Origin: Methanomicrobiales archaeon | Lineage (GTDB): Archaea; Halobacteriota; Methanomicrobia; Methanomicrobiales; Methanospirillaceae | Length of the DNA stretch: 35,490 bases | Assembly: GCA_012729535.1 (NCBI GenBank) | Contig: JAAYCY010000073.1 | Coordinates: forward strand, 1 to 35,490 | Reading direction: 5' to 3' | Shown: piece by piece, positions 9,418 through 35,490 of the stretch | How positions within the stretch are numbered: position 1 is the stretch's first letter | How the letters are laid out: each line of letters starts with the position of its first letter | Position numbers and translations under genes: made by a program | Notes under the pieces: model-generated | Databases searched by the model: none | What the model saw: the letters and a program-made list of their open reading frames with translations, nothing else | Told to the model about the DNA's origin: nothing

Positions 9418-9945
9418 CTGTTAAAGTTTTGAAGCGGTTCAGGTTTGAACGATGCAAACGCCCGGATTGCCTGAGGGGCAAGAGCCCTCCAGTATACGAA
9501 AAAGAGAATCCGTTTCGTAACCCCTGACTCCATCAGACAATACACCAGGTTTCCATCATGAATGTCTTCCCGGTCCCGGTTGCCATGGCAACCAGCATCT
9601 TCTGCATCCGGTCAGCAATGGCATTTTAAACCGCATGATTTGCCTGAATCCGATATAGTCTGAGTCGTTTATGGGTATTGTGTGTGTTCAGGAATTTCTG
9701 GCAAACTGCATTAAAATCTAAAGAGATTCATTCCTGGAGAGCTTGTGGGGTATGAAATCATTTGATCTCATGGGACCGGTTCTGTTCGCAGACATCGATG
9801 AACCAGTTTTCGTTCCGTTTGAAGAGTAGAAAAAGGGAACCGGTATTCATCAAAGGAGCATGAGCAACAGAATCAGGGATACCTTTTGCATATCTTCGTG
9901 CCTGATTCAGGACTTCCTGCGGTGCGACTAAATGATAAAAAAAAT
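9418..9945 (-). pseudogene. decayed type I restriction enzyme R subunit (HsdR)
   Basis: Reading the minus strand from 9945, successive pieces match the N-terminal half of HsdR-type helicase/nucleases: LVAPQEVLNQARRYAKG, WFIDVCEQNRSHEI, FHTPQALQE, RLRLYRIQANHAV and MLVAMATGTGKTF with the Walker A (near 9590-9560). After a frameshift comes LMESGVTKRILFFV, then RALAPQAIRAFASFKPEP. The first part is one frame interrupted by stops after HEIK, LQE and HAV; the helicase part continues in another frame after the Walker A. The translocase/helicase motifs beyond this and the C-terminus are missing. No hsdM or hsdS is visible. It is a dead remnant of a restriction system. Confidence 0.85.
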
Positions 9946-10098
9946 TCACTGATCATCTACATACAACAAAGAAAAAGGTTCAAATACCGCTCGTATTGAT
10001 TCATTCCCTTCTATGCCAGCAGGACCGATAAAAGCAGTAGGTATAAGGAGGTTTTTCTGGTGATAGTTCTTCATGTATTCCTCGAACATCAGTTTATA
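9946..10098 (-). pseudogene. 3' remnant of a thioredoxin-like gene
   Basis: About 50 codons (KLMFEEYMKNYHQKN ... PTAFIGPAG ... FEPFSLLY, stop at 9948-9946) align without gaps to the C-terminal end of the intact thioredoxin-like protein at 11853-12284, with 34 of 45 residues identical by my count. A TAG in the same frame lies two codons before KLMF, and the N-terminal half with the CxxC motif is absent. It abuts the HsdR remnant. The divergence argues for an old paralogue rather than a recent copy. Confidence 0.8.
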
Positions 10099-27552: not shown

Positions 27553-28167
27553 ATGGCGTTTACTTTCTTCTTTCGGGATGCCCAGACATTAAATCTCGCA
27601 ATCGATCATTTTCTCCCGTATATTCAAAGCAGGAGGACCATTACCATCTGGAGCGCAGGATGCGCAATGGGACAGGAACCCTATACCTTTGCAATTTTGC
27701 TCAGGGAACGAATGGGCCCGAACCTTTTTCGGAATGTCAAGATCTATGCAACCGATATAGATACCTATAACCAATACGTGCAGGTGATAGGAACCGGTCG
27801 ATACCCAGAAAAAGACCTCCAACGTATTCCACCCGACATTTTCAATCAATATTTTAAAACCGACCCGGAAGATCCGGGGTTCGTTTACATATCAGACGAG
27901 ATAAAAAATGCAGTTCAGTTCCAAAAACATGATCTGTTGACATTCGAACCGGTACGAACCGGGATTCAGATGATCATCTGTAAAAACGTACTCCTGCATT
28001 TTTCAGCAGAAGAACGACTTTTGGTATGGAACATGTTCTGGACCGCACTTGAAAGCGGCGGTTTTATACTCCACGAACACACACAAAAAATTCCTGAAGA
28101 ACTGGAAGGAAAGTTTACCCGGATAGTGATGAATGCACAGATATTCAGAAAACCAGAGCCCATATGA
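27553..28167 (+). CDS. CheR-type methyltransferase catalytic domain without N-terminal domain
   Basis: This 204-aa SAM-dependent methyltransferase matches the catalytic domain of the chemoreceptor methyltransferase CheR: FFRDAQTL near the start (the F-F-R motif), WSAGCAMGQEPYTFAILL (motif I, residues about 33-50), KIYATDIDTYN (motif II, acidic residue binding the ribose) and VQFQKHDLL ... MIICKNVLLHFSAEERLLVWNMF. The helical CheR N-terminal domain of about 70 residues is missing, with no upstream coding sequence for it. It may methylate receptors or have another target. Its stop overlaps the start of the first MBL gene by 4 nt, so the three genes are one unit. Confidence 0.88.
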   Translation: MAFTFFFRDAQTLNLAIDHFLPYIQSRRTITIWSAGCAMGQEPYTFAILLRERMGPNLFRNVKIYATDIDTYNQYVQVIGTGRYPEKDLQRIPPDIFNQYFKTDPEDPGFVYISDEIKNAVQFQKHDLLTFEPVRTGIQMIICKNVLLHFSAEERLLVWNMFWTALESGGFILHEHTQKIPEELEGKFTRIVMNAQIFRKPEPI

Positions 28168-28763
28168 TTGTCCAGAACCTTACCCGGAACAGTGAACAGT
28201 ACACATCCAATGCCTGGCACGTTTGTGGCACGTACCATGAATTATCTGACAAAAATACTCTCATCGACACCGGAAGGGATCCCTCAATCTTTGAAAAACT
28301 TGACCAGATAAAGTGTGGACTGGGGAAAAAACCTCTCGAACAGATCATCCTGACGCATTCTCATTTTGATCATGCCGGCGAACTGAATCGTTGCATTCAG
28401 AAATATCACCCAAAAGTATTCGCCCATCCACAGAGCAGGATTGCAGGGATTACTCCGCTCAAAGACAGGGAGATGATTCATGTTGGAGAACAGGACGGTA
28501 AAATCGTGCATACTCCCGGTCATAGTGAAGACTCACTCTGCATCCTGTGTGAACAGGATAAAACTCTGTTTTCAGGCGATATTCCAATCAGAATATATTC
28601 TGATGACGGTACCTATTCATCCCTTTTTGTCGAGGCTTTTGAGCTGTTTGCAGCATCTGAATTGAAAATGATTTATCCCGGGCATGGTGAACCGCTAACA
28701 CTCAATGTTTCCCAGCTCATTGATGAGTCGCTGAGAAATATCCACCGCAGCACGATTGTTTAG
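28164..28763 (+). CDS. metallo-beta-lactamase-fold protein, copy 1
   Basis: A 199-aa MBL-fold hydrolase. The dinuclear metal motif is LTHSHFDHAG (His65, His67, Asp69, His70). Further ligands are in HTPGHSEDSLCI (His in PGH), FSGDIPI (Asp) and YPGHGEP (last His), so the site looks complete. LIDTGRDPS is the usual early Asp strand. It is a short, glyoxalase II-like form with no added domain. It overlaps the CheR-like gene by 4 nt, and its paralogue follows 1 base after its stop. The substrate is not known; co-expression with a methyltransferase is the main clue. Confidence 0.9.
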   Translation: MIVQNLTRNSEQYTSNAWHVCGTYHELSDKNTLIDTGRDPSIFEKLDQIKCGLGKKPLEQIILTHSHFDHAGELNRCIQKYHPKVFAHPQSRIAGITPLKDREMIHVGEQDGKIVHTPGHSEDSLCILCEQDKTLFSGDIPIRIYSDDGTYSSLFVEAFELFAASELKMIYPGHGEPLTLNVSQLIDESLRNIHRSTIV

Positions 28764-28764
28764 C

Positions 28765-29361
28765 ATGAACATCAGAAACCTGACCGAAAAAAGTATCATA
28801 TACACATCTAATGCATGGCTCTGTAATTGTGACAAGCCAGAAAAGTGGTGCAAGATCCTCATCGATACTGGATGCGATATTCTTGCCATTGATGAACTCA
28901 GGGAGATTAAAAAAAGAACCGGGAGAACTCCTCTCAATCATGTCATCCTGACGCATAACCACTATGACCATGCACAGCTTCTTTGTGCGATAAAAAGAGA
29001 GTATGAACCGGTAATTCATGCCTCTTCTTCATATACCCAAGGTGTTGACCATGTACTGAATGACGGTGATGTTATTACCTGTGGTAGTTTCCATTTTGAG
29101 ATTATTGCGATACCCGGACATACCTCTGATTCGGTGTGCATATACTGCCCGGAGGAAGAAGTTCTCTTTTCCGGCGATACACCAATAAATATCTGGGGTT
29201 CTGATAATACCTATGAGCAGTCTTTTGTCAGGGGATTTGAGATACTCTCCAAGAAAAAAATCAGGGCAATATACCCGGGACACGGTGAAGTAATCCATTC
29301 GGATATACCGGGCATTATCAGACAATCCCTTATAAATCTTAAGAACAGCAGAATCATCTGA
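28765..29361 (+). CDS. metallo-beta-lactamase-fold protein, copy 2
   Basis: A 198-aa paralogue of the preceding gene; both open with NLT-x-x-S-x-x-YTSNAW and share the whole domain plan. Metal motif: LTHNHYDHAQ (His64, His66, Asp68, His69), then IPGHTSDSVCIYC, FSGDTPIN and YPGHGEV. It differs by extra cysteines in the N-terminal part (WLCNCDKPEKWCKILIDTGCD), absent from copy 1. The frame is open to 28756, but ATG 28765 gives the N-terminus matching copy 1. It is the last gene of the cluster. The duplication suggests two related substrates or a heterodimer (inference). Confidence 0.9.
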   Translation: MNIRNLTEKSIIYTSNAWLCNCDKPEKWCKILIDTGCDILAIDELREIKKRTGRTPLNHVILTHNHYDHAQLLCAIKREYEPVIHASSSYTQGVDHVLNDGDVITCGSFHFEIIAIPGHTSDSVCIYCPEEEVLFSGDTPINIWGSDNTYEQSFVRGFEILSKKKIRAIYPGHGEVIHSDIPGIIRQSLINLKNSRII

Positions 29362-33252: not shown

Positions 33253-33381
33253 ATGAGATTGGTGGCCTGTGGATTTTCGCAGGCAGTCCATGATCTCCAG
33301 ATTACTGAAAAGATTCATTCAATCGGGGGGAATTTTAGCATGATTGATCCGGTTATTGATGTGTTCTGGAGAGTGCATTAA
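33253..33381 (+). CDS. possible 42-aa ORF or gene remnant behind a perfect ribosome site
   Basis: AGGAGGTGATC (33228-33238) is a perfect match to the 16S rRNA 3' end. The ideally spaced start is GTG 33240, but that frame stops after 17 codons (RDYDEIGGLWIFAGSP). A second frame from ATG 33253 encodes 42 residues of protein-like sequence (AVHDLQITEKIHSIGGNFSM, then IDPVIDVFWRV). A frameshift joining the two is possible, which would make this a remnant. I recognise no family. Confidence 0.3.
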   Translation: MRLVACGFSQAVHDLQITEKIHSIGGNFSMIDPVIDVFWRVH

Positions 33382-33493
33382 CCGGATCTCATCAGGCAGT
33401 TCCTGGGACTGGTTAAAATGTTTTTAAATATGGTAATATGTTTTTTATCCAATATATTTTGCAATGTCTTAAAAAATTTGATTAGATGGTTTT

Positions 33494-33613: not shown

Positions 33614-33939
33614 AAAGTATGTACACAATGTGCACGTATGTACACGAATGTGCAAAACCATTTGCACATTAAAGAAGCCCTATATATTGATATTATTAAA
33701 AAATAATTATTATTTATATTATTAGTACTAGTATGTGCATAAATTTCAGGATCACAAGGGATACACAATTTTCCAAATATTCATGTACCTCTTTATTAGT
33801 GATCTGGAAAATTGTGCACATAACATATAAAATCAAAAAATACGAAGCGATTTTAATATTGAAACTCAATGCCCCTGCCTTTTATGTGCAAAGTAAAATG
33901 CACATTCGTGCACACACGTGCACATAATGCACATACTTT
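33614..33939. repeat. two facing, helically phased ATGTRCAC motif arrays (inverted repeat of about 57 bp)
   Basis: Left array: GTACAC, GTGCAC, GTACAC, GTGCAA and TTGCAC start at 33621, 33630, 33640, 33650 and 33662. Right array: GTGCAA, ATGCAC, GTGCAC, GTGCAC and ATGCAC start at 33886, 33898, 33908, 33918 and 33927. Spacings are 9, 10, 10, 12 and 12, 10, 10, 9, exact mirrors. The reverse complement of the right arm matches the left in about 45 of 57 positions by my count. Extra copies lie at 33735, 33785 (variant) and 33814. The core around 33681-33730 is almost pure A/T. No convincing gene overlaps it. Confidence 0.8.
33764..33816. repeat. perfect 12-bp inverted repeat in the array core
   Basis: CACAATTTTCCA (33764-33775) and TGGAAAATTGTG (33805-33816) are perfect inverted copies with a 29-base spacer containing another ATGTAC. 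The right copy runs into the GTGCACAT motif at 33814. The centre lies about 14 bases from the centre of the large inverted repeat. Confidence 0.75.
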
Positions 33940-34198: not shown

Positions 34199-34858
34199 AT
34201 GAAAATAGACGATGCTATCCTTACAACTTTTCCGGGACTTTTTATTGCAGAAGGCGATGTCGGACCACTTTGTATCACCGGCAGGAACCTGGAACTCGAA
34301 ATACTGAAAGAGAAGATTATCACCATTACAAAAGATCGGTATACCCTTGAAGAGGTGAAAGACGATCCTCTCTTCAGAGCGTACCGGGATTTTTTCTGGA
34401 GCGTTGGAATAGATCCTACAAAAACCCGTCCGGCCTCTGAAGCCCTGGTCCGGAGAATATTGTCCGGAAAAGTACTACCAACGATTAACACGGCTGTTGA
34501 TGCCTATAATCTTGCATCAATTGAGACCGGTGTGCCAATCGGAGCTTTTGATGCTGACCTCCTGAAAGGAGAACTCACGATGCGATTTGCACAGGAAGGA
34601 GAGGAATTTCTTGGAATCGGAATGGAAAAACCCATTGAACTCCATACAAACCAGGTGATTCTGACGGATGAGAAAGAGATAATTGCCATTTACCCATACC
34701 GGGATTCTGACAGGACAAAGATTACTCCGGCAACAAAAACGATACACATTGTGGCCTGCGGTGTTCCAAAGGTTACGCAGGAAACGGTTATTACCGCATT
34801 TGAACTTTCATCCGGATATTTGAAAGAGTATGGAACAGAGTCCGGGATAAAATTATGA
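34199..34858 (+). CDS. B3/B4-domain (tRNA-editing-like) protein
   Basis: A 219-aa stand-alone B3/B4 domain, the fold of the editing module of the phenylalanyl-tRNA synthetase beta chain (COG3382 group). Visible blocks: FRAYRDFFWSVGIDPTKTRPASEALVRRIL near residue 60-90, LPTINTAVDAYNLASIETGVPIGAFDADLL, and a late IAIYPYRDSDRTKITPATKTIHIVACGVP. These stand-alone proteins may deacylate mischarged tRNA or act on amino acids; function is not established. The start at 34199 has no Shine-Dalgarno; an AT-rich box near 34108-34118 may be the promoter. It stands alone, beside the phased array. Confidence 0.88.
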   Translation: MKIDDAILTTFPGLFIAEGDVGPLCITGRNLELEILKEKIITITKDRYTLEEVKDDPLFRAYRDFFWSVGIDPTKTRPASEALVRRILSGKVLPTINTAVDAYNLASIETGVPIGAFDADLLKGELTMRFAQEGEEFLGIGMEKPIELHTNQVILTDEKEIIAIYPYRDSDRTKITPATKTIHIVACGVPKVTQETVITAFELSSGYLKEYGTESGIKL

Positions 34859-35176
34859 TGAAAAGATGGTGATGTGTCTGCCATTACTCATTGCTGTATA
34901 AGAAAACAAAAAAAAGAAAACCCTGTCCTTTTTTGTGATAACACCCTGACTAATCATTATTAGGTGTTTCACAAGATCGAAATTACCATGGTATCATGGC
35001 ATTGGTGGCTCCATAACCCATCACAATACATAACGACCTCAAGGTAACAAATAATCGTTGAGTTAGTCCGGCCAACTGGAACTCAATGAATATAGGATAT
35101 CCCGGAATAAAAAAAACTAAATAACGTGTATAACTCTCATTTATTCATAGAATTCATAACGTCGAGGTAGTGCGGA
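34859..35176. other. intergenic stretch between B3/B4 and VOC genes
   Basis: No gene seen. It contains a T-run at 34929-34934 and a weak hairpin AACACC ... GGTGTT (34940-34968, with CTAAT/ATTAG nested), a plausible bidirectional end for the two convergent genes. Confidence 0.4.
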
Positions 35177-35490
35177 TTAAACATAATCCCCAGAATATTC
35201 ACCGAACGGATCTACCACAGATGCAGTGATGAAACCATTTCCTCTGTCCCGGATTTCTTCATGTTTCGTCGCCCCCATCGAGAGCAATCGGTGAAAAGTT
35301 TTTTGAACATCATCCACGTGCCAGTACATGACAGCACCTGCCGGTTCAGTACCCGGATTCCCGGATACATATCTCTTATCGATGATACCAAGTTCAAGCT
35401 CGTAATCTCCAATACGAAATTCGGCATATCCCGGAACTTCAAAATACGGATCACTGCCAAGGAGTTCAGCATACCATCTCTTCGCAGCAT
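35177..35490 (-). CDS. VOC-family (glyoxalase/bleomycin-resistance fold) protein, 5' end outside the window
   Basis: A minus-strand frame open to the window edge gives 103 residues ending at a TAA (35179-35177). The sequence has the VOC pattern: KRWYAELLGSDPYFEVPGYAEFRIGDYELELG (the F-Y-x-x-x-L-G opening of a beta-alpha-beta unit and the glutamate strand), AVMYWHVDDVQKTFHRLLSMGATKH (strand with the His ligand and helix), and GFITASVVDPFGEYSGDYV, the usual closing D-P-x-G-x-x strand. It is cut at its N-terminus by the window, not by mutation. Substrate is unknown; the superfamily includes glyoxalases, epimerases and dioxygenases. Confidence 0.85.
   Translation of the reverse strand, partial: AAKRWYAELLGSDPYFEVPGYAEFRIGDYELELGIIDKRYVSGNPGTEPAGAVMYWHVDDVQKTFHRLLSMGATKHEEIRDRGNGFITASVVDPFGEYSGDYV

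Follow-up and report, generated by a model that had tools for sequence, protein, structure and literature searches.

A mirrored array of 12 short sites in a Methanospirillum genome, probably a solo copy of the iteron origin of an integrated element

The window (the whole stretch of DNA analysed, 35 490 nt) is contig C65 of a Methanospirillum genome (G000, 3.09 Mb). At 33614–33939 it contains an array of the word TGTRCA that adjoins a B3/4-domain gene. Twelve sites lie within 33620–33933, compared with at most two in any other stretch of about 310 bp. The single word is not enriched across the window (54 matches with up to one mismatch, 46.5 expected), and the non-randomness of the array therefore lies in the clustering, order and phase of its sites and not in window-wide word frequency. 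With forward and reverse sites denoted F and R, the order is FFFF-R-F-R-F-RRRR and the steps are F-9-F-10-F-10-F-14-R-71-F-81-R-70-F-14-R-10-R-10-R-9-R. The array comprises the following features.

33614–33939, no strand: entire array, 12 sites; not spanned by any ORF of at least 80 aa, each of the six frames being interrupted by stops
33614–33674, forward strand: left arm, with direct TGTRCA sites at 33620, 33629, 33639 and 33649 and an inverted site at 33663
33679–33733, no strand: A/T-rich stretch (11 % G+C), possible unwinding region
33734–33739, forward strand: central forward site, matched at an equal step (71) by a site of the rep-gene array described below
33815–33820, reverse strand: central reverse site, inside the palindromic TTGTGCACA
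33879–33939, reverse strand: right arm, mirror of the left arm, with a direct site at 33885 and inverted sites at 33899, 33909, 33919 and 33928

The two arms form a 61-bp inverted repeat with 49 of 61 positions matched (80 %). An earlier note on this DNA, made from the sequence alone, had described mirrored arrays of at least ten copies with spacings of 9, 10, 10 and 12 facing each other across a nearly pure A/T core. The mirrored arrangement and the spacings of 9, 10 and 10 were recovered, but there are 12 sites, an inverted pair at a step of 14 bp had been taken for a spacing of 12, and the core is not free of sites, since it holds those at 33734 and 33815. Near-pure A/T composition applies to 33679–33733 and not to the core as a whole (26 % G+C). 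In a scan for the geometry that was blind to the word, the window array scored 12 of 12, while 154 shuffled loci reached a maximum of 6. An Rfam search matched only a tRNA (tRNA-Arg). A separate 13-bp inverted repeat (GATCCGGTTATTG/CATTAACCGGATC) is located at 33346–33388, between this tRNA and the array. The tRNA-Arg was considered as an attachment site and rejected, as no convincing repeat was found and a 12-bp match in the B3/4 gene was judged to be due to chance.

Only two TGTRCA arrays were found genome-wide in G000, that of the window and one at C17:12995–13302. The array is thus not a general repeat, as the earlier note had reckoned it would be if copies proved numerous. The C17 array is located inside the coding sequence of a 1054-aa ORF, termed Rep, and has steps of 8, 10, 11, 14, 71, 72, 72, 14, 11, 10 and 9. 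All 12 sites correspond between the two arrays and the steps agree within 2 bp except at the centre (81 vs 72). No Rep match was detected on the window contig by tblastn, and the window therefore carries the array without rep (a solo array).

Prim-pol motifs (DxD, GNGxH) are present in Rep, together with a zinc-binding segment (CPF/CHH) and a P-loop ATPase that has both Walker motifs, A and B. These are followed by a winged helix, by a variable linker and, at the C-terminus, by two zinc ribbons. The array lies in the linker, directly after the winged helix. Among 18 Rep homologues, invariance is complete or nearly complete at the DxD, the H, Walker A and B and the C-terminal cysteine pairs, while the linker has no invariant positions. 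No significant assignment was obtained by sequence against Pfam, PHROGs, NCBIfam or PDB. Fold comparison gave Z 8.8 for the prim-pol part and Z of about 8 for the winged helix before the linker, with low-confidence models; AlphaFold runs on parts of Rep with two sequences had poor mean pLDDT values of 51 and 39, and the helicase part was unusable.

Rep apparently belongs to the arCOG07809 family of integrated elements, an assignment based on a published description (PMC4158269) and not on a profile. In that account of archaeal prim-pol elements of the Mpal_2033 type, the domain set belongs to small integrated elements that also have an HJR-type nuclease (PMC4158269), and its authors guessed that the element is an integrated satellite virus (Makarova et al. 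2014, PMC4158269). Rep resembles that description in combining a prim-pol domain with a P-loop helicase, a winged helix and zinc ribbons, in being chromosomal and multi-copy, and in that a small protein weakly matching a Holliday-junction resolvase family is encoded ahead of rep (PMC4158269). An origin, an array within the gene, private words and solo arrays do not feature in the family's description there (PMC4158269), and no further naming of the family was found in the literature searched beyond that paper. The small ORFs that form a cassette with rep at locus L030 (5909–6259 and 6181–6540 upstream, 9704–10021 downstream) are conserved, and it is the first of these that gave the weak PHROG match (E 0.08). 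The rep loci of G000 and M. stamsii share a 4.66-kb homologous block with unrelated flanks, and no integrase or att repeat was identified. Adjacent pairs of paralogues of 167–186 aa (MADFVSKSVVKSAERELATPLAGKAVLNTIVGNILADNPWG...) recur within about 4 kb of rep at 21 loci (including L061, L063, L068, L070, L071 and L074–L080) and possibly represent a structural or cargo pair of the element. Loci L059, L066 and L091 (G000, G001 and M. stamsii) retain only the Rep C-terminus within surroundings that are 82–95 % alike over 2–4 kb; they are an ancient relic retained at a single place in the chromosome.

Relatives of Rep were found in 11 of 12 congeners, with as many as some 20 tblastn matches in a single genome (some genes being split over two matches), and across the order Methanomicrobiales in 91 of 150 genomes and 27 of 35 genera. 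Among plasmids, only a prim-pol half, in Methanomethylovorans, and weak matches to the helicase were recovered, and exact peptide patterns did not recover a relative from IMG/VR. Array geometry was detected by the word-blind scan in many rep loci, while many others (e.g. L054, L073 and L078–L080) had no array at the scan threshold used. Paralogues in Methanospirillum share the geometry and differ in the word (TATGCA, GCGGAA, TCGCGGAA, TTTTCTGCA, GGAGAA or GCGGCAG), and rep-gene arrays of other genera use TTTGCAC and TGCAGCA with the geometry unchanged. A private word for each element family is expected where the origins of several elements must coexist in one cell. Covariation of winged helix and word, judged by eye, was consistent and is confounded with phylogeny. 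The relation of word to winged helix would constitute a directly testable code for which natural specificity variants are at hand. In elements of genome G008, the array is located 1–2 kb downstream of rep (about 8284–8580 in L082 and about 9689–9974 in L077, rep-oriented); as these two arrays lie outside rep, the position of the origin varies between Rep subfamilies.

Comparison of G000 with M. stamsii gave a dN of 0.059 and a dS of 0.465 for Rep aa 1–800, and a dN of 0.195 and a dS of 0.114 for the array segment, in which synonymous change is depressed. Within this array 72 of 72 site bases are identical, compared with 191 of 239 outside the sites. This substitution pattern indicates that the DNA of the segment is conserved and the protein is not, with amino acids changing freely; if this holds, rep would clearly exemplify a coding region whose sequence is shaped by the geometry of the DNA and not by the protein.

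The window solo adjoins the same B3/4-domain gene in both species. Its site bases are identical at 70 of 72 positions (79 % outside the sites), both differences being A/G changes within TGTRCA. The array is without indels, and the spacing is therefore kept in a close relative, a check that the earlier note had proposed. Non-site positions of the array are identical at 209 of 254 and the flank at 74 of 103 (Fisher P=6.5e-5). The window solo thus appears, by sequence comparison, to be still constrained although it has no reading frame. For pairs of solos elsewhere, identity was 0.92–1.00 at sites vs 0.62–0.96 at non-site positions.

Solo arrays are not confined to G000. In the M. hungatei-like genome G003, the word TATGCA forms a single rep array and two solos with 12 sites in each, and several solos are present in genomes G060 and G133. 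On contig C6 of M. stamsii, a GCGGAA solo is recognizable as a former rep-gene array; its frame is broken and the homology stops at the array edges. Among 40 strict TTTGCA arrays in Methanomicrobiales, 17 were with a rep gene, three with the Rep C-terminus only and 20 without Rep, defined as no tblastn match to five Rep queries within 2.5 kb; a control scan with the reversed pattern gave signal in three of 150 genomes. Many solos match rep arrays, either from the genome that holds them or from a related one, from edge to edge only, and their neighbours are mostly unrelated genes. A tRNA adjoins the window solo and the C6 solo of M. stamsii, and is found neither at the G003 solos nor at the M. 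stamsii counterpart of the window solo. Some Rep families had no solo (CAGAAA in G001 and G003; TATGCA in G001 and G009).

The window feature is therefore probably a solo copy of the iteron origin of an integrated element whose Rep normally carries the origin within its own gene. The in-gene arrays are read as origins because their direct sites are phased and form two mirrored sets with an A/T-rich middle between them, and because they are private to a primase-helicase. Arrays that lie outside rep, Rep loci without an array at the scan threshold and Rep families without a solo tell against this reading. In the proposed mechanism, the winged helix of Rep would read a word of 7–8 bp, and four Rep molecules per arm would stack along one face of the DNA. 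The 14-bp inverted pairs and the steps of about 71 bp would bring the two arms together, and the A/T-rich middle would open and receive the helicase/primase part. Cooperative binding on one face by two facing assemblies, as suggested in the earlier note, fits this scheme well; the likely binder is the Rep of C17, whose gene contains the same array. The note's candidate of a replication origin with initiator sites and an unwinding element also fits well, though not in the form of a chromosomal Orc1/Cdc6 origin. A candidate origin is thereby gained for an uncharacterized and very abundant family of archaeal replicons. It is about evenly balanced whether a wider generalization holds, in which the origins of a family of integrated archaeal satellites lie inside initiator genes, each with the fixed geometry and a private word, and solos are dispersed, selected chromosomal sites across Methanomicrobiales, either origin-only parasites or immunity/incompatibility sites kept by the host.

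Known replicons share parts of this organization. PICI/SaPI are chromosomally integrated satellites with their own initiator, and in their origins an A/T-rich region located 3' of rep has a set of short iterons on either side (PMC6092414). The window array similarly has two iteron sets around an A/T-rich region, but the archaeal arrays differ in their fixed layout of 12 sites and in being inside the rep coding sequence or free-standing, not just 3' of the initiator gene. In phage lambda, the origin lies within gene O, so that the four direct iterons recognized by the initiator sit in its own gene. This placement is the same as in rep, whereas lambda has neither mirrored arms nor dispersed solo copies. 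Chromosomal sites that are bound by a replicon's initiator away from the origin are represented by datA in E. coli and by crtS, with RctB, in V. cholerae. Neither is a full copy of an origin, which the window solo probably is. The crtS site also features in PMC11711613.

The solo arrays raise the new question of why chromosomes retain copies of an origin without rep. A solo might be bound in trans by the resident Rep, and the bound copy could then act as a decoy or incompatibility site restraining the element, or could be an origin-only hitch-hiker. The first of these, in which an extra origin kept by the host titrates or handcuffs Rep and so silences or limits the element in the manner of datA or inc iterons, is a tentative reading that falls short of an even chance. 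It accords with vertical retention of the window solo beside the same B3/4 gene in two species with sites intact and the full 12-site geometry kept. Solos were also found in three of five combinations of genome and word with a resident Rep of the same word vs none of 19 without, although solos were sought with Rep-derived words and agreement between solo word and resident Rep word is partly by construction. However, the full mirrored geometry is more than a decoy requires, one or two copies are a weak sink, and G000 and M. stamsii are non-independent cases. Were it correct, solo arrays might offer a simple means, needing no protein, of interference with an integrated element.

The hitch-hiker would be a MITE-like unit of about 0.3–0.5 kb that ends in the inverted arms and depends on Rep, acting in trans, for its replication or movement; it is an unlikely though live explanation. 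Solos of the same genome at unrelated loci are alike over about 400–560 bp centred on the array only (L229/L231 in G060, L206/L207 in G133), the likeness ending within tens of bp of the array. The 61-bp arms would serve as terminal inverted repeats, but copy number is low, no enzyme is known and orthologous solos stay at one site across species (L224/L234, L226/L230). The non-autonomous mobile element listed in the earlier note thus survives as one explanation of solo copies, while in G000, with one solo and one in-gene array, it is not multi-copy.

It is rather improbable that the window solo is a passive, decaying remnant of an integrated Rep element that is now unused. Intermediates of such decay do occur, as arrays with only the Rep C-terminus (L065, L206 and L233) and in the broken frame of the M. 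stamsii C6 solo. Retention of solo sites while neighbouring positions diverge, in the window and in many solo pairs, nevertheless suggests that simple decay is disfavoured. Several solos also lose homology to rep within tens of bases of the array and have interiors that are 70–80 % alike, a combination not expected from simple decay of a whole rep gene.

A chromosomal Orc1/Cdc6 origin or an operator of the neighbouring gene is very improbable: the A/T-rich core and the inverted, clustered sites in an intergenic position upstream of the B3/4-domain gene would suit either, but cdc6 is on other contigs in G000 and at least about 120 kb from the G003 solos, 33614–33939 contains no match to the ORB consensus TTCCASTGGAAAC at up to three mismatches, as the earlier note had sensed, and an operator of the B3/4 gene is rejected because the array is absent at the B3/4 orthologues of G001 and G003 and other solos flank unrelated genes.

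Two further observations concern the window itself. Positions 1–1077 of contig C46 of G000 are 92 % identical to window positions 34420–35490, B3/4 gene included, which reflects either a recent duplication or the presence of a second strain among the assembled sequences. Two tandem, diverged genes of metallo-beta-lactamase fold (assigned by eye) at 28164–29361 are apparently a local duplication.
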